A stretch of 64,000 bases of DNA from an archaeon (GTDB taxonomy: Archaea; Thermoproteota; Nitrososphaeria; Nitrososphaerales; Gagatemarchaeaceae). The stretch covers positions 124,001 through 188,000 of the forward strand of contig CP066694.1 of the NCBI GenBank assembly GCA_016432545.1. The letters run 5' to 3'. Positions 1,750 to 55,099 of the stretch are shown here, one piece after another (the stretch's first letter is position 1; each line of letters opens with the position of its first letter). Position numbers and translations under genes: made by a program. The notes beneath the pieces are model-generated. The model saw only the letters and a list, made by a program, of their open reading frames with translations, was not told where the DNA came from and ran no database searches.

Positions 1750-2694
1750 TTGCCGAGGCTCTTCTTCATCACCGACGTCCACGCGTCAGACAGGTGCTTC
1801 CGCAAGTTCCTCAACGCTGCCAAGGCTTACAAAGCCGACGTACTCATCCTGGGTGGCGACATCACCGGCAAGGTCATGATACCGATTGTCGAGCAGGCCA
1901 AAGGCACCTACGCCCTCTCCCTGTTCGGAAAGCAGACCACGATCAGGAGAGAGCGCCTTGCGGAGACGCGGAAGTCCCTACTCGATGCGGGCCAGTATTC
2001 CTTCGTCACTACGCCGGCCGAACTCCAGGAAGTCACGGCCGACAAGTCGAAGGAGGACGCAGTATTCAACCAGGCCATGCTCTCGCTCCTGGATTCTTGG
2101 CTCGCGCTCGTGGAAGAGAGGCTCAAGGGGACGGACGTGCAGTGCTACATCTCCCCAGGTAACGACGACAGGCTCGAGCTTGACGCCCGACTCAGGGATT
2201 CGGGCCACGTCGTGAACCCTGAGGGAAGGATAGTCGAGATCGGCAGCGACAATGAGATGATCACCGTGGGATTCGCCAACCCCACCCCATGGAAGAGCCC
2301 CAGGGAGCTACCGGAAGACCAGCTCGCGAAGGTGATCGAGGGCCTCGCGCTGCGAGCAAGAAGGCCCGAATCCGCGATCTACAATCTCCACGTCCCTCCG
2401 ATAGGGACGGAGCTCGACAAGGCCCCTGCTGTCTCGAAGGACCTGAGCTACGTCAAGGAAGGTCTAGGATTCAAGTTCATCCACGCGGGGAGCACCGCGG
2501 TCAGGGAGGCCATCGAGAAGCACGCGCCCCTCCTTGGGCTCCACGGCCACATCCACGAGTCGAAGGGGTTCGTGAAGCTCGGCAGGACGCTCTGCCTGAA
2601 CCCAGGCTCCGAGTACGCGGACGGCATCCTGAGAGGAGCGATAGTCAACCTGCAAGACGGCAAGGTCAAGGACTTCCTCCTCACCAGCGGCTGA
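1750..2694 (+). CDS. Calcineurin-like metallophosphoesterase
   Basis: 314-aa predicted dinuclear metal phosphoesterase. The metal-binding motifs appear in order: FITDVHASD (D-x-H) near residue 6, LILGGDITGK (GGD), SPGNDDR (GND), the single His in YNLHVPP, and LHGHIHESKG (GHxH) near residue 262. The insert between the GGD and GND motifs (about residues 45-130) is longer than in minimal members and is helical/charged, perhaps a substrate cap. No signal peptide is present, so it is probably cytoplasmic. The start is TTG, supported by a TATA-like box 23 nt upstream. Its stop at 2694 directly abuts the stop of the convergent ABC permease at 2695. Substrate unknown. Confidence 0.8.
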   Translation: MPRLFFITDVHASDRCFRKFLNAAKAYKADVLILGGDITGKVMIPIVEQAKGTYALSLFGKQTTIRRERLAETRKSLLDAGQYSFVTTPAELQEVTADKSKEDAVFNQAMLSLLDSWLALVEERLKGTDVQCYISPGNDDRLELDARLRDSGHVVNPEGRIVEIGSDNEMITVGFANPTPWKSPRELPEDQLAKVIEGLALRARRPESAIYNLHVPPIGTELDKAPAVSKDLSYVKEGLGFKFIHAGSTAVREAIEKHAPLLGLHGHIHESKGFVKLGRTLCLNPGSEYADGILRGAIVNLQDGKVKDFLLTSG

Positions 2695-3555
2695 CTAGGT
2701 CAGCTCTTTCTTCTCGAAGAGAAACAGCCCAAGAAGCCCAGAGACCACGAAGTAGGCAGCCATTATGACCAGTCCCTCAAGGATTGAGGCCGAGAAGACG
2801 GTGACCCTGAACCCTGGCGGTCCGGGAGGGGTCTGAACTCCTTGCGGATACGGGATGTGGAGGACGTTCGAGATTATCCCCCCGGCATAGGTGATGGAGA
2901 ACCACGGTTCAATTCCTGCGATGGAGGCGACGATGGTGTCCACTATGTTCAGTGCGAAGAGCAGCACGATGACAGTCATGAGGACCGAGAGGGCGCTGCT
3001 CTTGAACAGGGAACTGAATAGAAATGTCAGCGTGAGGACGGCCACCAGGTTGACGTAAGCAAAGGCGACGGATTCGATGAACTCGAACTGGACAGGAAAC
3101 CCGAAGAAGTAGGTGGCGTTCGCGAGAGCTATCAGCGCGAAGACCCCGAGGACGAGCCCAGCCGCCCCGAAGGCCGCCAGCCACTTGCCCACGTATATCG
3201 CAGACCTCCTGACAGGATTCGGGACCAGGAAGTAGCCCGTCTTGTTCTGGAACTCTCCCGAGATGGCGTCTCCCCCGAAGAAGACGGCGGAGAGAAGGGT
3301 CACCAGGGGCACGAAGCTTCCCCACCAAGCGGAATAAAATGCGAGCTGCGGGTGGTTCTCCTCAGGAAGGCCGAACCCAAAGAAGCCCGACCTGAAGTAG
3401 GCCGCGGCGAATGTGAGTAGCGCGCTCATCGCGAGCACGATTGCGAGTATCACGTAGAACCTCCTCGCCCTGAAGTAATTCAGGAAGGCGTACTTCGCCA
3501 TCGTGCGGACGTGGGCGAAGGTCGAGACCCTGAGCGAGGCCGTCGCCTGGGTCAA
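2695..3555 (-). CDS. ABC-2 type transporter permease
   Basis: 286-aa integral membrane protein with about six hydrophobic helices: an N-terminal FYVILAIVLAMSALLTF segment, a central block including LVTLLSAVFFGGDAISGEF, and a C-terminal helix ending in LFLFEKKELT. The phrase GGDAISGEFQNKTGYFLVPNPVRRS is characteristic of GldF/ABC-2 permeases. It is the last gene of a four-gene minus-strand set and begins 2 nt after the ATPase encoded at 3558-4496, with which it presumably forms an export complex. Substrate not determinable. Confidence 0.8.
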   Translation of the reverse strand: MTQATASLRVSTFAHVRTMAKYAFLNYFRARRFYVILAIVLAMSALLTFAAAYFRSGFFGFGLPEENHPQLAFYSAWWGSFVPLVTLLSAVFFGGDAISGEFQNKTGYFLVPNPVRRSAIYVGKWLAAFGAAGLVLGVFALIALANATYFFGFPVQFEFIESVAFAYVNLVAVLTLTFLFSSLFKSSALSVLMTVIVLLFALNIVDTIVASIAGIEPWFSITYAGGIISNVLHIPYPQGVQTPPGPPGFRVTVFSASILEGLVIMAAYFVVSGLLGLFLFEKKELT

Positions 3556-3557
3556 TC

Positions 3558-4496
3558 CTACAGAGTCTCCTTGATCAGCTTCAGGTAGGCCTCTTCAAGG
3601 CCGCCAGACACTTCTTTCATCGAGACCGCACCCAGCTTCAGGCTGGCCATCCTGTTGAAGATGGCCTCTTGAGCTTGAAGCCCTCCTGAGTATCTTAGGA
3701 CCAGATGCCTGTCGTTCGACCTCGCGACCGAATCTACGTTCTCAATCGCCCCTACCTTCCTTGCCAGCTCGTCGTCGACCGGCCGCGCGAACCCCACCTC
3801 CACGGAGGTTCCATGACCACCGAATTGAGAGGTCACGTTTGCTATGGAGTCGTAGACCAGAAGCTTTCCATGGTCTATCATCGCGACCTCCTGGCAGACG
3901 TCCGTGACCTCGGCGAGCAGGTGGGAGCTCATGAAGACGAGCCTGTCGCTCAGTGACTTCACGATCTCTCTGACCTCGGTCATGCCTCTGGGGTCCAGCC
4001 CGGTGGTGGGCTCGTCCAGTATGATTACCTCGGGCTCGCTGACCAGAGTCGACGCTATTGCGACCCTCTGCTTCATCCCCTTCGAGAAACTCCCGACCTT
4101 CTTGTCCTCCCACTCTTGCATCTTCACTCTCCCGAGGGCCTCCTGGGCCCTCTTGGACCTCTCCTCCCGGGGGACCCCCCTCAGCTCCCCGACCATTCTC
4201 AGCGCCTCCATGGGGGTGAGGGCTGGATAGATCTCCGGCGTCTCGATCAGGGAAGCGCAGCCCGCCAGAGCTCTCTTCTTGTCCTTCCGCACATCGATTC
4301 CGTTGACCAGCGCCTCTCCCTTCGTGGGGGAGATCAGACCTGTGAAGATCTTCATGGTGGTCGTCTTCCCGGCCCCGTTTGGGCCTAGGAACCCCACGCA
4401 CTTCGTCCCATCGAGCCTCAGCTCGAGGCCGCTGAGGGCTGCGAAAGACCCGTACGACTTGGAGAGCCCCACAGCCTGCAGCGACGGTCCAGTCAA
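3558..4496 (-). CDS. ABC transporter ATP-binding protein
   Basis: 312-aa ABC ATPase of the DrrA/CcmA export class. Walker A is GPNGAGKTTTMK (about residues 38-49), the signature is SFSKGMKQRV (about 138-147), and Walker B is VIILDEPTTGLDP (about 161-173). The H-loop SSHLLAEV follows. A roughly 90-residue C-terminal extension is typical of drug-exporter ATPases. Partner permease is the adjacent gene at 2695-3555. The spacing and shared strand indicate one operon with the second exporter at 4509-6301. Confidence 0.88.
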   Translation of the reverse strand: MTGPSLQAVGLSKSYGSFAALSGLELRLDGTKCVGFLGPNGAGKTTTMKIFTGLISPTKGEALVNGIDVRKDKKRALAGCASLIETPEIYPALTPMEALRMVGELRGVPREERSKRAQEALGRVKMQEWEDKKVGSFSKGMKQRVAIASTLVSEPEVIILDEPTTGLDPRGMTEVREIVKSLSDRLVFMSSHLLAEVTDVCQEVAMIDHGKLLVYDSIANVTSQFGGHGTSVEVGFARPVDDELARKVGAIENVDSVARSNDRHLVLRYSGGLQAQEAIFNRMASLKLGAVSMKEVSGGLEEAYLKLIKETL

Positions 4497-5288: not shown

Positions 5289-6301
5289 CGACGTCGGCGC
5301 CTCCCCATGAACATCGAAGGAGCGTTCGCCTTGCTTACCTCCTCGGGTCTTATCCTCCTCCCAGTGTGCTGCAGAAACACGTCGTCCAGGGTCGGGGATG
5401 AGAAGCTCACCGACGAGAGCTTGATGCCCCTCGAGTCGAAGGCCCTGACGATGTCGGGGATGATTAGCCCCGCGTTCTTCGCATACACCGTTATCCCTTC
5501 GTCCGTGTCTATCACGCTGCTGACTCCCTGGAGCCCCTTCAGGGCCTCCCTTGCCGCTTCCTTGGGAGACGAACCCGCGACTCCGTTCTCCAGGGCCATC
5601 TTGATCGAGTCGGCCCCGACCTCTCTCTTCAGGGCCTCCGGCGTCCCGTTGGCAACGACCTTTCCCTGGTCGACTATGTAGAGCCTGTTGCAGAGCCGGT
5701 CAGCCTCTTCCATGTACTGCGTCGTCAGGAAGATCGTGATTCCCTCCTCGCGGTTGAGCTTCGAAAGGTACTCCCAGATGGTGGCCCTCGACTGCGGGTC
5801 GAGCCCAGTCGTAGGCTCGTCCAAGAAGAGCAGCCTAGGCTTGTGGACCAATGCGGAAGCCAGGTCGAGCCTCTTCTTCATACCCCCCGAATAGTGGCCT
5901 GCCCTCTTCTTTGCGACGTCCGAGAGCTGAACAAGCTTCAGCAGCTCCTCCACCCTCGACTTCAGCTCCTGCCCTCCCATCTGGTGAAGGCGACCCTGTA
6001 GCATCATGTTCTCTTCCCCGGTCAGGTCCGGGTCGATAACAGTCTCCTGGCTCGCCACCCCTATCAGCTTCCTGATGCCCTGTGGATCCTTCTCAAGGTC
6101 TATACCACAGACCCACACCTTCCCGGAGGTCTTCCTGAGCAGGGTGGTCAGAATCTTGATCGTGGTGCTCTTCCCCGCCCCGTTTGGACCGAGGAACCCG
6201 AAGAACTCCCTGTCGGAGACATTGAACGAAATCCCGTCCACCGCTTTCGTCCCGTCTGCATAGACCTCTACGAGGTCCTGGACCGAAATGATGTCCGCCA
6301 A
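5285..6301 (-). CDS. ABC transporter ATPase (daunorubicin-resistance type)
   Basis: 338-aa ABC ATPase. Walker A is GPNGAGKSTTIK, the signature HYSGGMKKRLD, Walker B LLFLDEPTTGLDPQS, and the H-loop is TTQYMEEADRLC, where His is replaced by Gln as in the DrrA subfamily (TTQYLEEADxL). The start is TTG at 6301. It is the first gene of the minus-strand exporter operon and is divergent from the PadR regulator across a 108-bp A+T-rich gap, which is the likely site of control. Confidence 0.9.
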   Translation of the reverse strand: MADIISVQDLVEVYADGTKAVDGISFNVSDREFFGFLGPNGAGKSTTIKILTTLLRKTSGKVWVCGIDLEKDPQGIRKLIGVASQETVIDPDLTGEENMMLQGRLHQMGGQELKSRVEELLKLVQLSDVAKKRAGHYSGGMKKRLDLASALVHKPRLLFLDEPTTGLDPQSRATIWEYLSKLNREEGITIFLTTQYMEEADRLCNRLYIVDQGKVVANGTPEALKREVGADSIKMALENGVAGSSPKEAAREALKGLQGVSSVIDTDEGITVYAKNAGLIIPDIVRAFDSRGIKLSSVSFSSPTLDDVFLQHTGRRIRPEEVSKANAPSMFMGRRRRR

Positions 6302-17522: not shown

Positions 17523-17576
17523 AGGTCTGGTAGCCCGAGGAAAACCCTTTTCCTCTAGAGCTACGTAATAGATTTG

Positions 17577-17939
17577 ATGGCGAAATTCAGTCACATCCAC
17601 ATCAATGTCTCCGATCTCAGCAAGTCACTAGAATTCTACGGCGAAAAGCTAGGCCTGAAGACCGACAAGATAACTGACACAATGGGTTCAGTCAGTCTGG
17701 AACCTGGTTCTCTGGACCTCGACCAGGTGCCAATAGAGAAACTCTCGGAGGTTTCGACGACAAAACACACAACGTTGGCTTTTTCCGTCCCGAGCATAAA
17801 CGATTACTACGATGAAATCAGTCTTAAGGGCGTTCAGACACTGGACAAACCAACGCGTAGGGCATGGGGTTCCTTCAACTTCTACCTGAAGGATCCTGAC
17901 GGGTACATGCTAGAAGTCGAGCAGCAGGAGAGCAGTTAG
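17577..17939 (+). CDS. VOC-family (glyoxalase-like) protein
   Basis: 120-aa VOC protein: KFSHIHINVSDLSKSLEFYG with a first-strand His, EKLGLKTDKITDTMG, then FSVPSINDYYDEISLKGVQ and WGSFNFYLKDPDGYMLEVEQ, where the last Glu is the usual metal ligand. It differs clearly from the VOC gene 240 bp upstream, so it is not a recent tandem copy. The start is one of ATG 17577 or TTG 17574. It lies between repeat copies 1 and 2 and has lower GC than the flanking housekeeping genes. Function beyond the fold is unknown. Confidence 0.78.
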   Translation: MAKFSHIHINVSDLSKSLEFYGEKLGLKTDKITDTMGSVSLEPGSLDLDQVPIEKLSEVSTTKHTTLAFSVPSINDYYDEISLKGVQTLDKPTRRAWGSFNFYLKDPDGYMLEVEQQESS

Positions 17940-17996
17940 TTTTGCTTATCCTGGCTATCGCAAGAGTCCAAAGGCCTGGGTGAAACTCATATTCGA

Positions 17997-18031
17997 GGGC
18001 TGGGACTTTGGCCCGGCATGCTGGGCAGAAA
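17997..18031. repeat. Repeat copy 2 (GC-hairpin class, partial)
   Basis: GGGCTGGGACTTTGGCCC continues into GGCATGCTGGGC and GAAA. The stretch from TGGGACTTTGG to GGGC is nearly identical to copy 4 at 20096-20126. The quasi-palindrome GCCCGGCATGCTGGGC can fold on itself. Only the GGGACTT part of the tRNA-like block is kept. A frame through this repeat gives a spurious N-terminal extension to the following gene. Confidence 0.5.
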
Positions 18032-18090
18032 TTCAGGCATGGTCAAGTCGCCACATCAGCGATAAATATCAAGTCCTTCTATTTCCACTC

Positions 18091-18558
18091 GTGGCCGAAC
18101 CAAGAACGGAGAAGGCGTACGTCAAGTACGCTTGGGTTATCTTTTTCATATTCGGCTTGCTTTCCGTGATATCCTCCCCAATCGGGCTCCTGGGCATACC
18201 GCCCAATCCGCCATCGCCAGAAAGTGCGACGGGCCTGACCTCCAGCCAGATTGCGGCTCGAATCCCGGGCATATCGGACTACATAGGCTCGATTGCGAGG
18301 CAACTCGGAAATTTCATGCTTGCGATGGGGGTCTTGACTATGGGCATCGCGGCTGTCCCATTCAGGAGAGGAGAAAAATGGGCTTGGTACATCTTCTGGA
18401 TTCTTCCCATCTTGCTCATCATCCAACTAACCAATAGCTTCCTTTCAACTCCGGGTGGTGGGTTCGGATGGCAATTTGACTTCGCCTTCATCTTCATCAT
18501 ACTGCTTGGGCTTTTCCTTCCTTACCGCAAGTTCTTTCCGAAGAGACGACAGGACTGA
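18091..18558 (+). CDS. Small integral membrane protein, unknown
   Basis: 155-aa protein with about four hydrophobic helices: KYAWVIFFIFGLLSVISSPIG, a second around SIARQLGNFMLAMGVLTMGI, then WYIFWILPILLIIQL and FDFAFIFIILLGLFLPYRKF. It ends with a basic tail. The open frame extends to a GTG at 17980, but that extension only translates repeat copy 2, so I place the start at GTG 18091, about 22 nt after a TATA-like ATAAATAT (18062-18069). No recognised family. It sits between repeat copies 2 and 3. Confidence 0.6.
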   Translation: MAEPRTEKAYVKYAWVIFFIFGLLSVISSPIGLLGIPPNPPSPESATGLTSSQIAARIPGISDYIGSIARQLGNFMLAMGVLTMGIAAVPFRRGEKWAWYIFWILPILLIIQLTNSFLSTPGGGFGWQFDFAFIFIILLGLFLPYRKFFPKRRQD

Positions 18559-18757
18559 ACTGAGAGCAGCTCTGGGACCTGGCCGCAGAATATTGGGTTC
18601 AGGGTACACGGTCCCGTCGGCAGCCAACCCAATCTCTTCAACGCAGTCGAAGAACCCCATCAGGTGACGTGCTGATTTTTTCATCGCTCGCTCAGGAAGA
18701 TCCCGGCAATTTGGTGGACGGCCCGTATTCTGGGGCAGAATCCTCACAGCAATAAGG

Positions 18758-18805
18758 AATGTGCGGGGGGTGGGATTACAGGACAATTCATTGTGTTGAA
18801 AGGCT
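18758..18805. repeat. tRNA-Leu 3'-end-like repeat, copy 3
   Basis: AATGTGCGGGGGGTGGGATT differs by one base from tRNA-Leu positions 23313-23332. Similarity continues into the tRNA's own flank (CAATAAGG here versus CAATAAAG). It is followed by ACAG, the hairpin ACAATTCATTGT (18784-18795), and GTTGAAAGG. The 200 bp to its left hold no gene I can support. Confidence 0.7.
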
Positions 18806-18866
18806 TCTTGAGCTGAATCGCCCAGTTGGGTTGCGCGGGTCCCCTGGAAATTCCAAGGTCAATTCC

Positions 18867-19043
18867 TTACTTTTCAGGTTCGCGGAGTTCTCGGCGCAAC
18901 ACCTTGACGCTCTCTAGGAGCAGGATCTCCTCCGGAAGAGTTTCGGGCGAAAGCCTCGAGGCTAAGATTACCCTCTTCATCATGATTGGGTCGAGCTGTG
19001 AAAGGAGAGATTGAATCTCATCTCTTTCGTTTCCATCACCCAT
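18867..19043 (-). CDS. Small soluble protein, unknown
   Basis: 58-aa ORF beginning MGDGNERDEIQSLLSQLDPI and ending LLLESVKVLRRELREPEK, highly charged and helical. Its ATG lies inside the stop region of the upstream 51-aa ORF (8-nt overlap), a translational-coupling arrangement that supports both as real. No family recognised. Both genes lie between repeat copies 3 and 4. A toxin-antitoxin-like or small regulatory pair is conceivable but not supported by motifs. Confidence 0.5.
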   Translation of the reverse strand: MGDGNERDEIQSLLSQLDPIMMKRVILASRLSPETLPEEILLLESVKVLRRELREPEK

Positions 19044-19191
19044 CCTTCCTCACAGGCCTTGTAGCCTTGCGCCTAGCGACCCAAGCGTCAACAATTGAAT
19101 TCAACCATCTCTCCACTTCGGGCTGAGACCGTGATAGCTTGATCCTCAAGTACGCCAGGGCTTCCTGATACTCCTGCTCCGAGGCCTTCAT
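19036..19191 (-). CDS. Small soluble protein, unknown
   Basis: 51-aa ORF, MKASEQEYQEALAYLRIKLS and then a Trp-containing helix (VERWLNSIVDAWVARRKATR), basic C-terminus. A TATA-like sequence, CATATATC on the minus strand (about 19211-19218), lies about 22 nt upstream of the ATG, fitting a leaderless transcript. It overlaps the downstream 58-aa ORF by 8 nt. No family recognised. Confidence 0.5.
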   Translation of the reverse strand: MKASEQEYQEALAYLRIKLSRSQPEVERWLNSIVDAWVARRKATRPVRKDG

Positions 19192-19299
19192 TTCGGACTT
19201 TCATTCGTTAGGAGATATATGAATCTAGAGTGCCAATCGCCTTTTCCAGCAATAAGATGCTCGAAAGTGTTCCCGAATTCTCCAATGGGTGACTGTTCG

Positions 19300-20058
19300 T
19301 CAGAGCTTCTCGTAGACGTCCAGCCACCCTGACCACTTCACAAGGGAGCGTCTGTTCACTAGTTCCCAGCCGTTTGATGCCATGATGGGTTCGAGTATGA
19401 ACGGCGCCCAGATAGCGTGCCTGAACTCCACCCTGTTCGTTCCGTCTTCCCATTCACTCTCGACTATCAAGTCTCCCCTTTCTGAGTCGTAATCCCTGGT
19501 CCTGCTTACAACCGACTTTCCTTTGTCCTTTTCGATGAGTTTAGGCTTCCATTTTCTACGAAACAGGAGACCTGCTACGTCACGATAATCGGTTATGAAA
19601 TGGGAGCCTTTCCCAACGACTGGGTCGACTCTACTAATCAATCTGACGAAGTCTCGAGTGTCAAAGTGGCACATTGCATTTCCAAGGAGTGTCACGGAGT
19701 CAAAGGATCCTTCAACTCCACAGCTGATTATGTCGCCCAGGATGAACCTGTTACGCGACCGTATCTTCTTTGCGAATGCGGTCGCTGATTCGATCATGTC
19801 TCCGTTGATATCAATCCCTACGTAACCATGACCATCCTTTTCGATGATGAAGCCGAGAATGCCTCCTCCGCAGGCCAAGTCCAAGACCTTTCGCCCGAAG
19901 TACTTGCGATTCGCACGGTAGAGTTCGGAGAGCTCTTTCACCCGCCTTCTGTTTGACATCAAGTATCTCCCGAAGTCGTCGTGCTTGCGGTAGTAGACTT
20001 CGATATCCTGACGAGCCACACCTATCAGCAAAGCTTGCACGCTAAATTTCTTGTCCAT
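19300..20058 (-). CDS. Class I SAM-dependent methyltransferase
   Basis: 252-aa methyltransferase. Motif I is KVLDLACGGGILGFIIEKDG (about residues 63-82), then YVGIDINGDMIESATAFAKK for motif II, NRFILGDIISC, and FDSVTLLGNAMCHF for the post-I region. The last third is beta-rich (DLIVESEWEDGTNRVEFRHA) as in small-molecule methyltransferases. Substrate unknown. Start set at ATG 20058; a TTG at 20076 is in frame. The upstream region runs straight into repeat copy 4, so its promoter (TATTTTGC at 20073-20080) adjoins the repeat. Confidence 0.8.
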   Translation of the reverse strand: MDKKFSVQALLIGVARQDIEVYYRKHDDFGRYLMSNRRRVKELSELYRANRKYFGRKVLDLACGGGILGFIIEKDGHGYVGIDINGDMIESATAFAKKIRSRNRFILGDIISCGVEGSFDSVTLLGNAMCHFDTRDFVRLISRVDPVVGKGSHFITDYRDVAGLLFRRKWKPKLIEKDKGKSVVSRTRDYDSERGDLIVESEWEDGTNRVEFRHAIWAPFILEPIMASNGWELVNRRSLVKWSGWLDVYEKL

Positions 20059-20081
20059 CCAGGAATTCTTGAGCAAAATAG

Positions 20082-20132
20082 AGTGTGCGGGGGGTGGGAC
20101 TTTGGCCCGGCATGCTGGGCGGAAACAGGCTA
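20082..20132. repeat. tRNA-Leu 3'-end-like repeat, copy 4
   Basis: AGTGTGCGGGGGGTGGGA (20082-20099) is identical over 18 nt to 23313-23330, which covers the tRNA-Leu 3' end and 4 nt of its flank. It is followed by CTTTG, the GC-rich quasi-palindrome GCCCGGCATGCTGGGC (20105-20120) and GGAAACAGG. This right half is shared with copy 2 rather than with copies 1, 3 and 5. Confidence 0.75.
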
Positions 20133-20137
20133 TGATG

Positions 20138-20284
20138 TCCTAGGAAATCGATGCTTGTCCATGCTCCAGCGTACACATGGGCCCCGATCTGTTCCATCAG
20201 CCCGAGGTCTTTTCTGTAGTTCCAGATTTCTGCAACTTTGCTTTTCCCGAAGCGGAAGATGCTTGCTCTAGGGGACGATGGACG
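20138..20284 (-). pseudogene. C-terminal fragment of a SnoaL-like protein
   Basis: The minus strand encodes IFRFGKSKVAEIWNYRKDLG followed by LMEQIGAHV. This has the shape of the C-terminus of SnoaL/ester-cyclase proteins and parallels IFRIANGRLAEHW...LGMMEQLGV of the intact gene at 22695-23123. An in-frame stop lies just upstream (20285-20287), no start codon precedes the fragment, and the frame runs on through repeat copy 4. I read it as a truncated remnant. Confidence 0.45.
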
Positions 20285-20345
20285 CTATCTGCTCATCCAA
20301 TCTCTCTATGAAGGCTTCGGCCATCGAGAGGTTCACGTTCCTAGA

Positions 20346-20753
20346 CTAGGCATTTGCAACCATGGTTGGGGAGCGAACCTGGGATTCCGAATAGACCAAT
20401 GGAGCGCAGAGGAGAACTGCCACTGAGGAGATCAGTACTATGAGTTCACTCAGACTTATTGGAGGAGGTACGGGCCTCAAGAAGAAGAGCCCGGCTTGGT
20501 CTCCTGGGACCAAGAAGATATACGAGATGGCCGCGATGCTCCCGAGAATCGTCGCGGTTCGGGGTCTCTTGAAAATGAGGACGAAGGAAGCGATGCCCAG
20601 TATTACTGTGGCCAAGAAAATAGGGATCAATGCGTAGGACCTAAGCGTTGAGGGAGGGCGAGTCTCCAATCCGGCAGGGGTCAAAAGGAAGCCGGTTACT
20701 GCCATCACACCGAACGCGACCACAAGGATCTTGCGGTTTCTAGAGAATTCCAT
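20346..20753 (-). CDS. Small integral membrane protein, unknown
   Basis: 135-aa protein with four hydrophobic helices: ILVVAFGVMAVTGFLLTPAG, ALIPIFLATVILGIASFVLI, TATILGSIAAISYIFL and LIVLISSVAVLLCAPLVY. Layout resembles many archaeal four-helix proteins of unknown role. ATG start. A TATA-like CTTATAAC (minus strand, about 20793-20800) lies about 40 nt upstream. It sits between repeat copies 4 and 5; the 200 bp upstream contain no gene I can support. Confidence 0.6.
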   Translation of the reverse strand: MEFSRNRKILVVAFGVMAVTGFLLTPAGLETRPPSTLRSYALIPIFLATVILGIASFVLIFKRPRTATILGSIAAISYIFLVPGDQAGLFFLRPVPPPISLSELIVLISSVAVLLCAPLVYSESQVRSPTMVANA

Positions 20754-20958
20754 CTGATTGTCTGGGCGATTGATTGAGAGTGGTTATAAGTATCTCCGTG
20801 CGCTATTCAGATCAAGACCTTCTAGGCGCCCTCCTCCGATCCTGCAGAACCTATTTCAACCCACCACAATATCAAGATGCTGGGAATTTGGATTAAGCCG
20901 CGGACGGGGTAAGGTTGAGGATTAGAGCAGAAGCGAACTTCCCGCTATTGGTAGTTGC

Positions 20959-21042
20959 CTAACGTCCCAGCGAGGAGACTATCACAAAGAGTATGCCAAC
21001 CAGCCCTATGACCGAGGCGGCGATAAATCCTCCTGGTCGCAA
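20959..21042 (-). CDS. Possible 27-aa single-helix membrane peptide
   Basis: TTG-started ORF reading LRPGGFIAASVIGLVGILFV then IVSSLGR and a TAG stop: one hydrophobic helix with a basic end. It resembles other tiny archaeal membrane peptides, but no promoter is clear and so short a frame may be chance. Reported as tentative. Confidence 0.25.
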   Translation of the reverse strand: MRPGGFIAASVIGLVGILFVIVSSLGR

Positions 21043-21101
21043 CCATATCGTCTGAAATTCATCACCCTAATGACAGTCTAAGTGGAAACTTTACGGCCTT
21101 A

Positions 21102-21147
21102 AGGATGCGGGGGGTGGGACTTCAGCACAATTTATTGTGCTCAAAGC
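21102..21147. repeat. tRNA-Leu 3'-end-like repeat, copy 5
   Basis: AGGATGCGGGGGGTGGGA (21102-21119) matches 16 of 18 positions of the tRNA-Leu 3'-end block. It continues with CTTC and a perfect 8-bp hairpin AGCACAAT-TT-ATTGTGCT (21124-21141), then CAAAGC. It lies just past the stop of the epoxide hydrolase pseudogene. Confidence 0.7.
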
Positions 21148-21279
21148 AGGAGCGACCACGGCCCGGAACGCCATGCAGTCGACGGGACTGCTGAACTCCA
21201 TGTACATAGGAAATACTCAGAACTCGAATTGAGGCTGGGGAATTTGGGACGGGTCTCGAAATGAGGTGATGCAAAGGGC

Positions 21280-22443
21280 TCACCGAAGGGGCCTGAAGAA
21301 GGTCCTGATCTCGTCCGCAAGGAGACGAGGCTCTTCCGTTGCTGCAAAGTGACCGCCAGTGGGATGACCTTCCAATATCGGATGTTGTACACCCGTTCTG
21401 CCAGCTCCCTGGGATGAGCATGTGGAAAGACGTAGTCGTTCGCAAACAGAGAAGCGCCCGTGGGCACTTCGATCCTTCCTTTCCTCCAGGGCATGGGAGG
21501 GCTATGGTACCCTTCGTAGTATCCACGAATCGTTGAGCCGATTGTCTCGGTCGTCCAGTATATCATCACAGTTGTCAGGAGTTCGTCCTTGGTGAACCTG
21601 GTCTGCACATCCCCATTCGTGTCTCCCCAAGCTCTGTACTTCTCGACGATGTACGCCGCCAGTCCGACCGGCGAATCGTTCAACCCGTACGATACGGTCT
21701 GGGGCTTCGTTCCCTGGATGTGGCCGTATGCCCCTTCTTCCCGCTCCCACTCGTCGAGCAGGCTGAGAAATTCCCGTTCCGGCTCGGAGAGCTCCGACCT
21801 GTCTGGCAACGGAACGGGGAAGCGCAGGTCGTTGTTCATGTGGATCCCAATCAAGTCCCTTGGGTAGAGATAGGCTAGGTCGGTGGTTACTCCTGCACCC
21901 ACATCTCCACCTTGAGCACCGAATCGCCGATAGCCCAACACGTCGGTCATCAGGGAATGCAGGATTTCAGCCCTGTTGGTCCAACCCTTCTTGGATTGTC
22001 TATCGGAGAAACCATAGCCTGGGAGAGAAGGTATCACTACGTCGAACGAATCTTCCTTCTCGCCGCCGTTCGAAACCGGATCGGTCAGGTATGGCACCAG
22101 CTTCAGCATCCCGGCAAAGCTATCAGGCCATCCGTGCAACAGCAGAATTGGCATCGGTTTGGGGCCCTTGCCCCTCATGTGAACGAAGTGTATGTTCCAT
22201 CCCAGTGCTTTGGCCTTGAATTGCGGGAAGCTGTTCAGTCTCCTTTCCTGAGACCGCCAATCGAATTTGTTTAGCCAGTAGTTCGTGAGTTCCTTCATGA
22301 AAGACAGGTGACGTACCTTGATCCCAGTCGGCACCCTCCGCTTCATCTGGCCAGCGGGTTCTGAACAGCCTTGTCTTCAGGTCGTCTATTATTTCCTGTT
22401 TGACATGTATTTCGAACGGCTCAGCGACCTGACTATCCGTCAC
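21280..22443 (-). pseudogene. Epoxide hydrolase, broken by two frameshifts
   Basis: An N-terminal-domain epoxide hydrolase (alpha/beta hydrolase) spread over three frames. Frame 1 (GTG 22443 to about 22315) has the EHN start PFEIHVKQEIIDDLKTRLFR and TRWPDE. Frame 2 (to about 21375) has the body: FDWRSQERRLNSFPQF, LLLHGWPDSFAGM, the nucleophile region QGGDVGAGVTTDLAYLYP. Frame 3 ends with the catalytic-His region PTGGHFAATEEPRLLADEIR and TFFRPLR, stop at 21280. Single-base indels near 22305-22325 and 21360-21385 would restore one chain of about 387 aa. A TATA-like sequence (ATAATTAT, about 22467-22474) lies at promoter distance. Sequencing error is the alternative explanation. Confidence 0.75.
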
Positions 22444-22520
22444 GGCAGAGGAGGGTTCTAGAGTCTGATAATTATGTGTCGAGTTGCCAGTCGGATACTT
22501 GGCCCTAGACCTACGTTACT

Positions 22521-22570
22521 GTGCGGTCGCCGGGACTACAGCTCTACATGTAGAGTTGAAATCCCACCGC
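22521..22570. repeat. Repeat copy 6, full cruciform form
   Basis: GTGCGGTCGCCGGGACTACA leads to a perfect 14-nt palindrome CTCTACATGTAGAG (22542-22555) and then TTGAAA. The outer arms also pair: GGGA (22532-22535) with TCCC (22562-22565) and GCGGT (22523-22527) with ACCGC (22566-22570). The order GTGCGG...GGGAYTACAG-hairpin-TTGAAA is the same as in copy 3. A weaker relative (TGGGACTTACGCA, TTTGCG) follows at about 22612-22656. The rest of 22444-22694 has no gene I can support. Confidence 0.5.
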
Positions 22571-22694
22571 CATGCCAGGCCTCATCCGACTGAGAATGAC
22601 GTGAACCCATGGTGTTGGGCGGAGAACTGGGACTTACGCAGGATGATTTGCGGTCCCTGGAACTTTGAACCCGTGAAGGAAAAAGATAGCTCCT

Positions 22695-23123
22695 TCAAGT
22701 AGAGCGGGGTCGCTGGGTCACTCCCAGCTGCTCCATCATCCCCAACCGATCAATCACGGTCCAGTGTTCTGCCAATCTGCCGTTCGCAATCCTGAAGATG
22801 TCAATGACCTCCATCTGGAGGTGCTTTCCTGTGGGCGCCACGCCCATGTATTCCCCTTGGTGCGTCGCATAGAGAGTCTTCCTAGTCGCCACCATATCTT
22901 CCTCCGCAATCATGTTGTTGATGACCATGTGAAAATCGGGAAACGACTTACGGACATACAAGAACATCTGTTTCGTTCCATCACGGTTAGGTGGGAAACT
23001 TGGAAGAGGATTGTGATCCACGAAGTCGGGCGCAAAGATCTCCTCGATTAGCTCGCTTCGCCCTGCGTTTTGGATCTCCTCGATAAATCGCTGCACTACA
23101 CCCTTATTCTCTTCTAGCGTCAT
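22695..23123 (-). CDS. SnoaL-like / ester cyclase family protein (NTF2 fold)
   Basis: 142-aa NTF2-fold protein of the SnoaL/ester-cyclase group: helix ENKGVVQRFIEEIQNAGRS, EEIFAPDFVDHNP (conserved D-x-x-x-HNP), RKSFPDFHMVINNMIAEEDM, then GKHLQMEVIDIFRIANGRLA and EHW. Bona fide SnoaL proteins close polyketide rings, but most archaeal and soil-bacterial members have unknown substrates. No polyketide genes are nearby. ATG start; a TATA-like CATATATG lies about 30 nt upstream. Intact counterpart of the fragment at 20138-20284. Confidence 0.8.
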   Translation of the reverse strand: MTLEENKGVVQRFIEEIQNAGRSELIEEIFAPDFVDHNPLPSFPPNRDGTKQMFLYVRKSFPDFHMVINNMIAEEDMVATRKTLYATHQGEYMGVAPTGKHLQMEVIDIFRIANGRLAEHWTVIDRLGMMEQLGVTQRPRST

Positions 23124-23316
23124 TAGACATCAATCAAAGCTGGCTTTCAGACCCATATATGTATAGGTCGAACGCTAGCCTTGCGACAAAATTAGTTCCG
23201 CACCGGGCTGATGAATTCTGGCTGAATGTACGTCATGTAGACGTACCTCCTCATGTTGTGCCTCACCGGGTGTGAAGGACGGGACTTCGACTTGCCGCTT
23301 TGAGACCAATAAAGTG

Positions 23317-23401
23317 TGCGGGGGGTGGGATTCGAACCCACGAACCCCTGAGGGACGAGGTCCTAAGCCTCGCGCCGTTGACCAGGCTGGGCGACCCCCG
23401 C
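23317..23401 (-). tRNA. tRNA-Leu (UAG)
   Basis: 85-nt class II tRNA on the minus strand. Acceptor GCGGGGG (5' end at 23401) pairs with CCCCCGC, discriminator A at 23317. T-arm GTGGG-TTCGAAT-CCCAC, anticodon stem CGAGG/CCTCG with loop CTTAGGA, giving anticodon UAG, and a long variable arm (TCCCTCAGGGG region) as expected for leucine. The 3' CCA is not encoded. Its 3' end faces the accessory region, and partial copies of this end recur there. A weak repeat-like stretch (GGGACTTCGACTTGCCGC, 23281-23298) lies immediately downstream. Confidence 0.92.
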
Positions 23402-51432: not shown

Positions 51433-52758
51433 ATGGCCAATAAGCCTCACCTGAACCTCATCGTCTGCGGCCACGTGGACCACGGCAAGTCCACCTCCAT
51501 GGGCCACTTCCTCTATGACATGGGAGTAGTCGACAACAGGATGATCGAGGAGTTCGCGAAGGAGTCCGAGAAGACGGGTTCGGGCGACTCTTTCAAGTAC
51601 GCATGGGTCCTCGACAAGCTCAAGGACGAAAGGGAGCGCGGCGTCACCATCGACCTCGCCTTCGAGAGGTTCGAGACTCCGAAGTACTTCTACACTCTTA
51701 TCGACGCCCCCGGGCACCGCGACTTCATCAAGAACATGATCACCGGCGCCTCCGAGGCGGACGCAGCCGTACTGGTCGTCTCAGCCAAGAAGGGCGAAGC
51801 CGACGTCGCACTGGGCCCAGGCGGGCAGGCAAGGGAGCACGCCTTCCTCCTCCGCACCCTCGGCGTCACCCAGATGGTGGTGTGCATCAACAAGATGGAC
51901 GACCAGACCGTGAAGTACTCCGAGGAGAGGTTTAACGAGGCGAAGCAGGACGTGGAGAACCTCCTGAAGACAGTCGGCTACGACATCAAGAAGATCAACG
52001 TGATCCCGATCTCCGGCTGGACGGGCGAGAACGAGGTCAAGAAGTCCACAAACATGCCCTGGTACAAGGGGATGACGCTCCTCGAGGCTCTCGACACCTT
52101 CACAGAGCCCCCGAAGCCCATCGAAAAGCCGCTGCGGCTCCCTGTCCAGGACGTCTACACGATCACCGGCGTCGGCACGGTCCCGGTCGGAAGGATCGAG
52201 ACGGGCAAGATCAAGGTGGGCGAGAGCGTTTCAATCATGCCGGAGGGCCTGACGGCCGAGGTAAAGTCCATCGAGACCCACCACACGCAGATGACCGAGG
52301 CGATGGCCGGCGACAACATCGGCTTCAACCTGAGAGGCGTGTCCAAGACCGACTTCCGCAGGGGGAGCGTCCTCGGCCCGTCCTCGAACCCGGCTACCAT
52401 CGCGAAGGAGTTCCAGGCGCAGATCATTGTAGTCTTCCACCCGACGGCCATAGCTCCGGGCTACACCCCGGTCCTGCACGCTCACACCGCCCAGGTCGCA
52501 GCCACCATCACCGAGATCGTGGCCAAGATCGACCCCAGGACTGGCCAGCCCACGGAGGAGAAGCCAAAGACGATCAAGACCGGAGACTCTGCGATCGTGA
52601 GGATACAGCCCCTCAGGCCCATCGTCCTTGAGACGTTCAAGGAGTACCCTGAGCTCGGGCGTTTTGCCCTCCGAGATATGGGGGCCACCGTCGCTGCGGG
52701 AATTGTCCGCGAGATAACTCAGAAGGGCCAAGTCGAGAAAGCCGTAGCGAAGGCTTAG
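51433..52758 (+). CDS. tuf: Translation elongation factor EF-1A
   Basis: 441-aa archaeal EF-1 alpha, the GTPase delivering aminoacyl-tRNA to the ribosome. G1 is CGHVDHGKSTSMGH, switch region DERERGVTIDLAFE, G3 DAPGHRDFIKNM, G4 CINKMDD, and the C-terminal domains are complete through RDMGATVAAGIVREI. No intein is present in it. In many archaea it is followed by rps10; here rps10 is absent and a homing-endonuclease-like gene abuts it, stop to stop, 5 nt apart. It is also unlinked from rps12-rps7 by about 6 kb. Confidence 0.96.
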   Translation: MANKPHLNLIVCGHVDHGKSTSMGHFLYDMGVVDNRMIEEFAKESEKTGSGDSFKYAWVLDKLKDERERGVTIDLAFERFETPKYFYTLIDAPGHRDFIKNMITGASEADAAVLVVSAKKGEADVALGPGGQAREHAFLLRTLGVTQMVVCINKMDDQTVKYSEERFNEAKQDVENLLKTVGYDIKKINVIPISGWTGENEVKKSTNMPWYKGMTLLEALDTFTEPPKPIEKPLRLPVQDVYTITGVGTVPVGRIETGKIKVGESVSIMPEGLTAEVKSIETHHTQMTEAMAGDNIGFNLRGVSKTDFRRGSVLGPSSNPATIAKEFQAQIIVVFHPTAIAPGYTPVLHAHTAQVAATITEIVAKIDPRTGQPTEEKPKTIKTGDSAIVRIQPLRPIVLETFKEYPELGRFALRDMGATVAAGIVREITQKGQVEKAVAKA

Positions 52759-52763
52759 ACTGC

Positions 52764-54107
52764 TTAGATTCCGTACTTAGACGGTCGAATTCCCTCCTTA
52801 ACTAAAGCGTCGTACCTGTAGCCCTTCACGTGCTCGTTGAAGATAGGAAGGTGCGAAGCCTCTCTTCTATTCACCATAGTTCTAAGCGGGACACCTCCCT
52901 CGATGATGGTGTGTGCGCTCGTCATTCCAAGGCTCAACAACAGTTTGGTTACGAACTCCGCATTCGGCACACTGGTAACGACCACTTCGGAAGGCTTTAC
53001 CCCAGCATCCGAATCCGCAAGGCCTTGGACAAATCGTAGCCTGAAACTGAAAGGGGCTGAGAAAATCCAGTCCATTTTCAGTGGATCGTAGCTGGTTCTC
53101 TCTTCCCAGCCTAGACCCATGCAAACCGAGAACATCCACGCGAGCAGTGGTGATCGTTCCGAAACCCACCGATATGCACCAGTTGGTGTCTGAGAGTATT
53201 TGGAATCGCCAGTTGGTTGCTTGTCGGAGATGCGCTTCATCTTGATGCCAATAGTGTTTGCACACATGCAAACATACTTCCCCAGCCGCTCATTGCTATT
53301 GCGTTTGAGGGAAAGCTGAAGGTCGAGACCCATGGACGCGAACCTCTCTTGAATACCACCGGACTTGCTGGAGTCTCCAGACATCATCGCAAGAAGATAT
53401 CCAACGAGGTCTAACCGTATCTCATCTAGTGTTTTGATTCCGAAACCATCTGCCAGTTCCTTAGCCTCTTGGAGGAATGGCAGTTGCGCCACGACCCTGG
53501 CCAGATCGTCGAACACCCTGATAGACTCCGGGACTTCTACCCAGTCGGACTGAGTGTTCCCTCCTGAACCAAGGTGAATGGGGAGAATTTTCCAGCCTGG
53601 CTCTAGATGCTTCGACTTGGCCACGACGGCGACCTTCATAAGGTAAGGCAGGTCCTCTCCACTCCTCCATCCGAGAATCGTCGAACGATGCACGCCCAGC
53701 ACCCCGGCGGTTTCCTCGACTCCCTTGCCCTCAGAGTGCATGACAACAAACTTGCAGAACTTGTCAAGCTGGCTCAGACCTATCCCTGACGCTGAGACTC
53801 CCCACACTCTCTCCCTGATCAGTGCCTCCACTTTTGCCGTGCCCATCATTGCGAGTTCCACCACTTCGGCCCCTAGAGATAGAGTGGGCTGGCTAACCCT
53901 GTGACTGCCTTGCTTTGTCGTGATGCCTAGCCTCCTGAGCCAATCGCTGACGAGCTTTGGGTCAGTGCCATCCTCCTGCGCTATTCGCAGCATTGACTTC
54001 CCTTCCCGAAACTTATCCGCCCATCGCCTCGCGTCGGCTTCAGTCCTCCTGATGTGCTGTCGTTTTGCGCGTGGAGTCTCCTTCTCCTGGTCTTCAGGGA
54101 GCGGCAC
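52764..54107 (-). CDS. HTH protein with LAGLIDADG-like homing endonuclease domain
   Basis: 447-aa protein. The N-terminal 160 residues hold two HTH-like units, one around KSMLRIAQEDGTDPKLVSDW and one around VEETAGVLGVHRSTILGW. The C-terminal 230 residues resemble a monomeric LAGLIDADG endonuclease: motif 1 RLDLVGYLLAMMSGDSS (about residue 232) and motif 2 FVQGLADSDAGVK (about residue 360), each ending with the acidic residue expected in the active site. No intein splicing motifs flank it. GTG start; TTCATAAGC (about 54138-54146) is TATA-like. Base use is more A+T-rich than its neighbours, suggesting transfer. Free-standing homing endonuclease is the best guess; a WhiA-like regulator is the alternative. 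Confidence 0.7.
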   Translation of the reverse strand: MPLPEDQEKETPRAKRQHIRRTEADARRWADKFREGKSMLRIAQEDGTDPKLVSDWLRRLGITTKQGSHRVSQPTLSLGAEVVELAMMGTAKVEALIRERVWGVSASGIGLSQLDKFCKFVVMHSEGKGVEETAGVLGVHRSTILGWRSGEDLPYLMKVAVVAKSKHLEPGWKILPIHLGSGGNTQSDWVEVPESIRVFDDLARVVAQLPFLQEAKELADGFGIKTLDEIRLDLVGYLLAMMSGDSSKSGGIQERFASMGLDLQLSLKRNSNERLGKYVCMCANTIGIKMKRISDKQPTGDSKYSQTPTGAYRWVSERSPLLAWMFSVCMGLGWEERTSYDPLKMDWIFSAPFSFRLRFVQGLADSDAGVKPSEVVVTSVPNAEFVTKLLLSLGMTSAHTIIEGGVPLRTMVNRREASHLPIFNEHVKGYRYDALVKEGIRPSKYGI

Positions 54108-54253
54108 GGGTAGACAGACCTTCAGGGTGCTTATGAAGCGAAATCCACATGTGACACGTTTGGTCGGGACTTCGCCGAAAGTGATCCGATGGCGGGGCCC
54201 GGATGCGAAAGACGGCGAACCGTTTAGTAATCATCCAACGACATCGGCCTACC

Positions 54254-55099
54254 TTGTCCTTCCTCAGGGTCGTCGAAGTCTTTCCTCCACTCTTTCCAAA
54301 GGCAGCCACCGACGGGCCTCCCAAGGACTCTGAGATAGACAGGTTCGTCGACAGCATTCGTTCGATAAGGGTGCACGCAGACATCGTCCTGGTGAGCAGT
54401 TTGAAGCGGGCGGACGTAGTCATGCTTCCCCCGGTCCACTCGGCTGCGATCCTCGAAGAGAGGGCCGGGGTCAAGGCAGCGCCGGTCATCGTCGTCCGCA
54501 GGATGACGCGCGACGAGTTCGATTCCACAGTCCTCGAGTCGCTCGCCCTGGGCCTAGACGCCGTGATGCTGGCGTGGGGCGACCCAGACCCTCTCCTGCC
54601 AAGGGTTCGTTCCCCGGAGGGCCATGCGACGCTCTCGGAGGCCATAGCCCGGGCGAAACTCCTTGCGAAGCGGGCTGGGCGCGACCTGAGGGTCCTCTCT
54701 CCAGTGGACCTGCGGACCCTGTCGACCCGCCCAGGCGGCACTATTGTCTCCTCCCGCCTGGCCGCAGGTGCCGACACTCTCCTTGCCCAGCCGCCTACTA
54801 CCGACGCAGGCGTGACTTTCGAGGAGCACGCGGCCGCTGTTGGTATGGCCAGACTCAAGGAGAAGGTCATGCTGAGCGTCTTCCCGTTCTTCAGCGCGGA
54901 GGACGTAACCAAGAGGGAGGCGGCGTTCGGGTGGAGGCTCTCAGAAGAAGTCCACAGGGCTGCGGAACAGGGCGCGGATGCCCTCGTGGGCGAGTCGAGG
55001 AGGATAGTCGGGAGGCTTAGAACAGATGGATTCCCGGGCGTCTATCTCTCCACAAGAGGAGACCCTTCAATCGCTGAGAGGATTCTCTCTCAGGCATAA
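54254..55099 (+). CDS. Methylenetetrahydrofolate-reductase-like protein
   Basis: 281-aa probable TIM-barrel protein. The start SFLRVVEVFPPLFPKA resembles MTHFR (FEVFPP), followed by VSSLKRADVVMLPP, VKAAPVIVVRRMTRDEF and ALGLDAVMLAWGDPDPL, similar to the folate-binding region (GGD in MetF becomes WGD). No zinc or corrinoid domain is seen. It could reduce methylene-tetrahydrofolate or methanopterin, but the second half diverges. The frame opens at 54203, but GTTTAGTAATC (54220-54230) fits a TATA box for a leaderless TTG at 54254. Confidence 0.5.
   Translation: MSFLRVVEVFPPLFPKAATDGPPKDSEIDRFVDSIRSIRVHADIVLVSSLKRADVVMLPPVHSAAILEERAGVKAAPVIVVRRMTRDEFDSTVLESLALGLDAVMLAWGDPDPLLPRVRSPEGHATLSEAIARAKLLAKRAGRDLRVLSPVDLRTLSTRPGGTIVSSRLAAGADTLLAQPPTTDAGVTFEEHAAAVGMARLKEKVMLSVFPFFSAEDVTKREAAFGWRLSEEVHRAAEQGADALVGESRRIVGRLRTDGFPGVYLSTRGDPSIAERILSQA

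Follow-up and report, generated by a model that had tools for sequence, protein, structure and literature searches.

What keeps an endonuclease-like gene directly beside a conserved gene, and outside any intron or intein, in an archaeal chromosome? Homing endonucleases in conserved cellular genes usually reside inside an intron or intein and are hence tolerable to the host. The question is raised by a free-standing HTH-LAGLIDADG gene (hereafter HEG) that lies tail-to-tail with the gene for EF-1A in a 64,000-nucleotide stretch of a Gagatemarchaeaceae genome (contig CP066694.1, positions 124,001 to 188,000; hereafter the window). Free-standing HTH-LAGLIDADG genes of the same family recur in Gagatemarchaeum-type Thaumarchaeota of soil and groundwater. 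We consider it moderately probable that the HEG is a free-standing homing endonuclease gene from an archaeal family in which every clade is dedicated to a single conserved gene. For the family as a whole, the best reading is that of free-standing homing endonucleases with the ends of conserved genes as safe harbours.

The HEG is an intact open reading frame (ORF) of 447 amino acids with a GTG start on the minus strand (52764..54107), while EF-1A occupies the plus strand (51433..52758). The two genes are convergent, with 5 nt (52759..52763) separating their stop codons, exactly as the original prediction had it. It had further claimed that splicing blocks and an interrupted host gene are both absent, and this agrees with what was found: the Pfam matches of the HEG protein include no splicing domain, EF-1A is uninterrupted and matches TIGR00483 over residues 3-431 (E 5.9e-191), and the HEG is a separate ORF on the opposite strand, outside any intron or intein. 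On its far side the HEG is followed by a plus-strand gene (54203..55099), a relative of which was found past EF-1A in another genome (G033). The claimed A+T-richness was likewise confirmed, with a GC content of 0.54 vs 0.62 in the surrounding 16 kb and the lowest GC3 (0.607; median 0.796) among the 50 window genes called by a simple ORF caller, and the HEG has a codon score of 0.071 per codon, the window-gene median being 0.322. Elsewhere in the window, a cluster of low-GC3 genes (17574-23123; glyoxalase, methyltransferase, epoxide hydrolase-like and SnoaL-like) looks foreign and adjoins a tRNA-Leu (23316-23401); no integrase was found among the six proteins scanned.

The nature of the protein was decided by its predicted fold. 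Against the window protein, the Pfam profile LAGLIDADG_3 (PF14528) reached E 0.0066 (17.1 bits, cut-off 22.5) and HTH_23 reached E 8.3e-5 at residues 120-149, below its cut-off, and a DPANN relative (L161) scored 21.8 bits to PF05204 Hom_end, just over the cut-off of 21.1. An NCBIfam search with the window protein gave no convincing match, and a PDB sequence search with the family profile returned nine sequences up to E 1, none of them named homing endonuclease. The AlphaFold model, built on 9 aligned sequences (pLDDT 82, pTM 0.74), features N-terminal helical HTH-like units followed by a two-motif LAGLIDADG fold at residues 196-447 (52767..53522, minus strand). In the VIA-align comparison the predicted fold was closest to PI-SceI (Z 15.3), with archaeal I-Tsp061I at 13.5 and WhiA at 13.3, and the top Foldseek row, which was also the sole match below 0.001, was an intein endonuclease (E 4.6e-4).

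The first LAGLIDADG helix of the model (residues 231-248, 53364..53417, minus strand) contains GYLLAMMSGD with the invariant D245, and the second (residues 353-367, 53007..53051, minus strand) contains RFVQGLADSD with the invariant D367, which bears out the two motifs originally noticed. G244, D245, K248, S366 and D367 are invariant in all 26 rows of the family alignment, so that no aligned copy has lost the positions at which metal ions would be expected to bind. Of the two HTH-like units that had also been noticed, both have helices in the model; the second (residues 108-165, 53613..53786, minus strand) additionally has the sub-threshold HTH_23 match, whereas the first (residues 23-59, 53931..54041, minus strand; helices 23-34, 39-46 and 50-59) has no profile match. 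Membership of the window protein in the LAGLIDADG superfamily is well supported by the model, since the fold decided where the profiles were too weak, and we infer a place for it among the active homing endonucleases. A sensitive profile search had been proposed as a check on the LAGLIDADG relationship, and the match is weak, but with a LAGLIDADG fold predicted it does not refute the relationship.

At least one family match was present in 20 of the 46 genomes of the GTDB family to which the window belongs. All 20 positives in a sample of the order (250 genomes) and all 12 in a sample of the class (350 genomes) fell inside this same GTDB family, and the two positives in a sample of the phylum (398 genomes) were the genome of the window itself and one other. 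The latter, the sole further member in the phylum sample (L278, 1075-2301), has by eye a PGK gene as its head-to-head neighbour and, tail-to-tail at ~320 nt, a gene with an RpiA-like C-terminus. Distant members were found in DPANN, in 5 of 371 genomes from the phylum of a Pacearchaeota record and 2 of 156 from the phylum of an Aenigmatarchaeota record, the two starting genomes being included in these counts. Viral, phage and plasmid collections yielded no relative at the sensitivity used, where the viral-contig scan needs short conserved patterns and the phage and plasmid searches used the window protein alone. A literature search, in which subscription journals were mostly not covered, found no description of this family.

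Most branches of the family keep an address of their own, and in the majority of cases the HEG adjoins the 3' end of a conserved gene in tail-to-tail orientation. The clade of the window protein (45-58% protein identity to it) is tail-to-tail with EF-1A in 10 of 10 members across four genus codes, a placement that is thus not due to chance; gaps between the aligned parts are 12-126 nt in eight genomes, with outlying values of ~0.9 kb (G010) and 1.2 kb (G007, with a called 71-aa ORF in between). Additionally, the HEG at the EF-1A 3' end of G035 is a separate member on a long branch, and two branches of the family therefore share the EF-1A address. In a second clade, the tail-to-tail neighbour is the gene for ribosomal protein S28e in all 11 genomes having S28e on the contig. 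At six of its loci the next gene on the 5' side of the HEG belongs to one family of 58-62 aa, L24e by profile, so that the HEG is antisense between S28e and L24e (in G006 it precedes L24e at the end of a contig). The third clade, which includes a second HEG copy of the window genome, is tail-to-tail with the gene for the tetraether lipid synthase Tes (NF045702) in five of six cases, with gaps of 7-539 nt and, in G016, a 118-aa ORF between HEG and Tes; the exception, in G010, is not beside Tes. A small fourth clade is also found by Tes, at a gap of 157 nt in G012 and 3.4 kb off with other ORFs between in G004. No clear shared address could be assigned to five members (L105, L106, L113, L227 and L278), which the tail-to-tail tallies exclude.

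On the family tree with strict neighbour labels (38 rows, nine addresses; L105, L115 and L117 uncounted), the addresses require 9 changes, the minimum being 8, whereas 200 shuffles of the labels, which ignore relatedness, gave a mean of 22.9 and a lowest value of 18. A smaller tree with four labels, from which L078 and L113 are absent although present in both larger trees, requires 7 changes (minimum 3; shuffled mean 17.3). With own labels for the exceptions (G035, the Tes-clade copy of G010 and the second Tes clade) the count, at 9 changes for a minimum of 9, looks better than it should. Three broken members (L118, L120, L121) and two short ones at contig ends (L122, L123) are in no tree, and L119, L010 and L117 were entered as their longest open piece. 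Such address fidelity is equally expected under plain inheritance.

Whether the EF-1A address is constantly occupied was read from 36 EF-1A loci, one of them cut off at the contig end; a 37th (G044), also cut off, was left unread. HEGs occupy 11 of the 35 readable 3' ends and are absent from 24, the latter including the near-identical pairs G020/G026, G031/G037 and G028/G039. On an EF-1A DNA tree of 34 rows, HEG presence needs 8 changes, of which the well-supported branches force at least 5, and as the shuffled mean is 8.1, presence is about as scattered as by chance. Some of the empty ends retain traces of a HEG. Within 47-178 nt past EF-1A, G033 has a 22-residue antisense stub of the HEG C-terminus (13.7 bits, vs 8.4 for the best of 20 shuffled sets), and the relative of the far-side gene of the window (ORF 54203) lies 186 nt past EF-1A in the same genome. 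Up to 100 nt past the stop, the EF-1A 3' flank of G020/G026 shares 88% identity with the flank in the occupied G040, from which it then diverges inside the C-terminal codons of the HEG, a stub read by eye and missed by the HMM stub search at empty sites, which reported G033 alone. With two independent cases in three genomes, some empty EF-1A sites are, to judge from these sequences, losses of the HEG. Broken HEG copies were found in G014, G012, G032, G015 and G006; these genomes are drafts, so some of the breaks may have arisen in assembly. Among the 35 readable 3' ends, none could be recognised as a virgin empty site. The comparison of junctions in sister genomes that had been suggested as a check thus gave presence and absence, and an association that is not lineage-wide, but no virgin site, and the only empty ends with a legible history are losses.

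The HEG protein shows signs of purifying selection at the sequence level: third codon positions differ more than first or second ones in all six HEG pairs compared, and although dS is mostly saturated, the sole unsaturated pair (G013/G014) has a dN/dS of ~0.3. For movement between lineages, the AU test did not reject the HEG topology with the EF-1A data (p 0.0675), and the HEG data rejected the best EF-1A tree (p 0.001), the nine-row EF-1A tree being weakly resolved; these asymmetric topology tests on nine rows do not demonstrate horizontal transfer. The compatibility of the EF-1A data with the HEG tree leaves room for a gene that was inherited vertically over a long time and lost in places, or for a domesticated one. 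Co-conversion of EF-1A was not found either, as carriers need 8 changes on the tree of EF-1A 3' ends and 7 on that of the 5' ends, and for five of nine carriers the closest EF-1A sequence, whether at the 5' or the 3' end, comes from a non-carrier; G007 is out of register in the 3' comparison, which was ungapped, and is uninformative there. Within the EF-1A clade the HEG looks old, and the pattern appears to be one of old association and losses. Homing, if any, would act mostly within populations, and the data here comprise one genome per species. For the proposal of a homing endonuclease at the EF-1A 3' end this means that LAGLIDADG kinship, the free-standing state, the tie to EF-1A and presence/absence stand, while horizontal movement, a virgin site and co-conversion were not found in these comparisons.

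How such a gene might persist can be outlined as follows. The protein, a single chain with two LAGLIDADG motifs and extra HTH readers, would recognise and cut, in cells without the HEG, a target located in or close to the 3' end of EF-1A, upon which repair of the break would copy the HEG in, using EF-1A as one homology arm ("intronless homing"). A tail-to-tail HEG just beyond the stop codon would leave EF-1A intact, and the target would lie in sequence that the host can hardly change. Cleavage, exact target and copying by repair are the parts of this scheme that we infer. The homing reading is supported by the predicted fold, the motif aspartates, the signs of selection, address fidelity, the tail-to-tail placement, patchiness, the stubs and broken copies and the second EF-1A branch; against it stand the negative outcomes for transfer, co-conversion, a virgin site and viral, phage or plasmid relatives, the Tes-clade member of G010 that is off Tes and four further members without a clear or shared address.

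By analogy, the HEG would work most like the seg and mob endonucleases of phage T4, which are free-standing enzymes encoded between conserved genes, spread by intronless homing, belong to the GIY-YIG or HNH type and cut hundreds to thousands of bp away (PMC2988022). The HEG resembles them in lying outside an intron or intein and being tied to a nearby conserved gene; it differs from these phage genes in combining LAGLIDADG with HTH-like units, in residing in an archaeal chromosome, in being mostly convergent with its neighbour and in that its cleavage is putative. In fungal mitochondria, mobile ORFs (mostly LAGLIDADG) are described at the 3' ends of atp6, atp9, cox2 and nad3, where they swap the C-terminus of the host gene and leave the old end as a remnant (PMC3630166). 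The position of an endonuclease gene at the 3' end of an essential gene is shared with those ORFs. Unlike with them, a search with gene ends of 35-50 aa found no convincing remnant of an old end on the far side of the element at 24 EF-1A, S28e and Tes loci, and replacement of the 3' end, as in fungal mitochondria, was rejected on this ground, although the search could miss an old, decayed gene end. Among archaeal enzymes, I-DmoI and I-Tsp061I have the fold predicted for the HEG protein, with two motifs per chain, but they are intron-encoded according to their entry titles, whereas the HEG lies outside introns and has the extra N-terminal HTH-like units. WhiA (DUF199) is a bacterial LAGLIDADG-HTH transcription factor with degenerate nuclease residues. 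The HEG is like WhiA in joining a LAGLIDADG fold to HTH and differs from it in that both acidic motif residues are invariant in the HEG family.

This relation to WhiA is one of the points that speak for a domesticated regulator, the alternative named in the original prediction, according to which these proteins are former homing endonucleases that tune the expression of strongly expressed conserved genes by binding to their 3' ends, possibly having lost the ability to cut there. Besides WhiA among the structural neighbours, the alternative draws on the long, possibly vertical association of clade and gene across four genus codes, on the purifying-selection signs and on the convergent placement, which could allow antisense interference. 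The lack of a HEG at 24 of 35 EF-1A 3' ends, scattered on the tree, the stubs and broken copies, the retention of both motif aspartates in 26 of 26 aligned members and the lack of relation among the neighbour genes (EF-1A, S28e, Tes, kae1) all argue against this role. As the HEG looks old in its clade and the only empty sites with a legible history are losses, this alternative is weakened, and we regard it as rather unlikely.

The stubs and broken copies also speak for an ageing passenger, an ancient insertion at each address that is now immobile and only inherited and decaying, as do the compatibility of the HEG tree with the EF-1A data and the missing co-conversion signal. However, frames that are intact at 45-58% protein identity to the window protein, together with the excess of third-position differences, imply continued selection on the protein, and we judge a mere passenger improbable too. 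That the HEG is an ordinary, unrelated DNA-binding gene, next to EF-1A by chance in the window genome, could be argued from the weak LAGLIDADG profile matches, but is contradicted by the predicted fold and by the fidelity of clades to their addresses and deserves hardly any credence.

The tie of the family to conserved gene sequence can be read as independently supported by the neighbours of its DPANN relatives. Four of the seven (L160, L161, L225, L226) lie directly 5' of kae1 (TIGR03722). Among the others, L227 has its HEG 5' of an aminotransferase gene on the same strand, and the HEGs of L228 and L229 overlap tail-to-tail with a neighbour gene by 15 nt (1347-1361) and 4 nt (1495-1498), respectively; this neighbour, a gene for a nucleotide-binding protein with a marginal CobW match in L229, looks the same by eye in the two, which belong to different DPANN phyla. 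Next to the four HEGs, kae1 is interrupted between GIESTA and HT by 13 (L160), 16 (L161), 18 (L225) and 16 nt (L226). The predicted structure of the inserts comprises a short helix, bulged by 3 nt on its 3' side, a small loop and an outer helix, and removing them restores GIESTAHT in frame. We interpret them as relaxed bulge-helix-loop structures, predicted introns at one conserved codon; such introns of 13-18 nt are predicted at six loci (L160 7195-7300, L161 7165-7290, L225 1300-1500, L226 1380-1520, L249 and L272), where excision gives back GIE-TAHT in frame in all six and the 4-bp core stays paired despite base changes (CTGC/GCAG at three loci, CCGC/GCGG at the other three). Four of the six have a family HEG directly upstream and two have no neighbouring HEG, none being found within ~1.5 kb of the kae1 introns of G432 and G270. 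Of the 194 genomes searched, 183 have kae1, and among the best 30 of these 183 loci an uninterrupted gene was read at 27, while the intron is present at three, namely in the genome of L226 itself and in G432 and G270.

In L160, a second kae1 start-like stretch (MTIILGIESTCHFSHFSGTIIKYL) and a 9-nt tandem repeat were seen by eye upstream of the HEG (5829-5905), giving the impression that the original 5' end of kae1 was displaced by the element. By eye, this case comes closer to the fungal mobile ORFs, but at the 5' end. In L271, where kae1 is uninterrupted, the same strand carries a long ORF (2454-3884) upstream of it that scored a weak 16.9 bits to the kae1-HEG profile. With a LAGLIDADG-like middle and, by eye, a GyrB-like end, this ORF is probably an intein and not a member of the family.

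More speculatively, the family may have an intron-free lifestyle in which each clade keeps one conserved gene end, mostly convergent, as a permanent safe harbour over genus-to-family time, while for the branch at kae1 the conserved target codons would be split by a bulge-helix mRNA intron of 13-18 nt that serves as an immunity tag, hiding the target in DNA with splicing restoring the protein; we regard this combined reading as rather unlikely. If true, a life just outside conserved genes, with one clade per gene, would be a different mode of persistence for a selfish gene, and the family would allow testing of how HEGs survive without visible horizontal transfer. Further, the kae1 mini-introns could reveal how a nuclease and the gene that hosts it come to terms, and enzymes with strict natural targets in the genes for EF-1A, S28e and Tes would be useful tools.

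A separate feature concerns S28e, which has a strongly hydrophobic C-terminal tail of 19-24 aa in 13 of 37 loci (L102, L103, L107, L109, L111, L114, L116, L119, L168, L169, L174, L186 and L187), eight with a HEG behind and five without. The tail was considered as a product of HEG insertion and rejected as such, since downstream of five of the 13 tailed loci no HEG was found (the readable stretch being 976-1431 nt at four of them and only 210 nt in G030) and the tail is missing at three of the 11 HEG loci, so that HEG insertion alone does not account for it. By eye, G002 also has such a hydrophobic stretch, in frame past the S28e stop.
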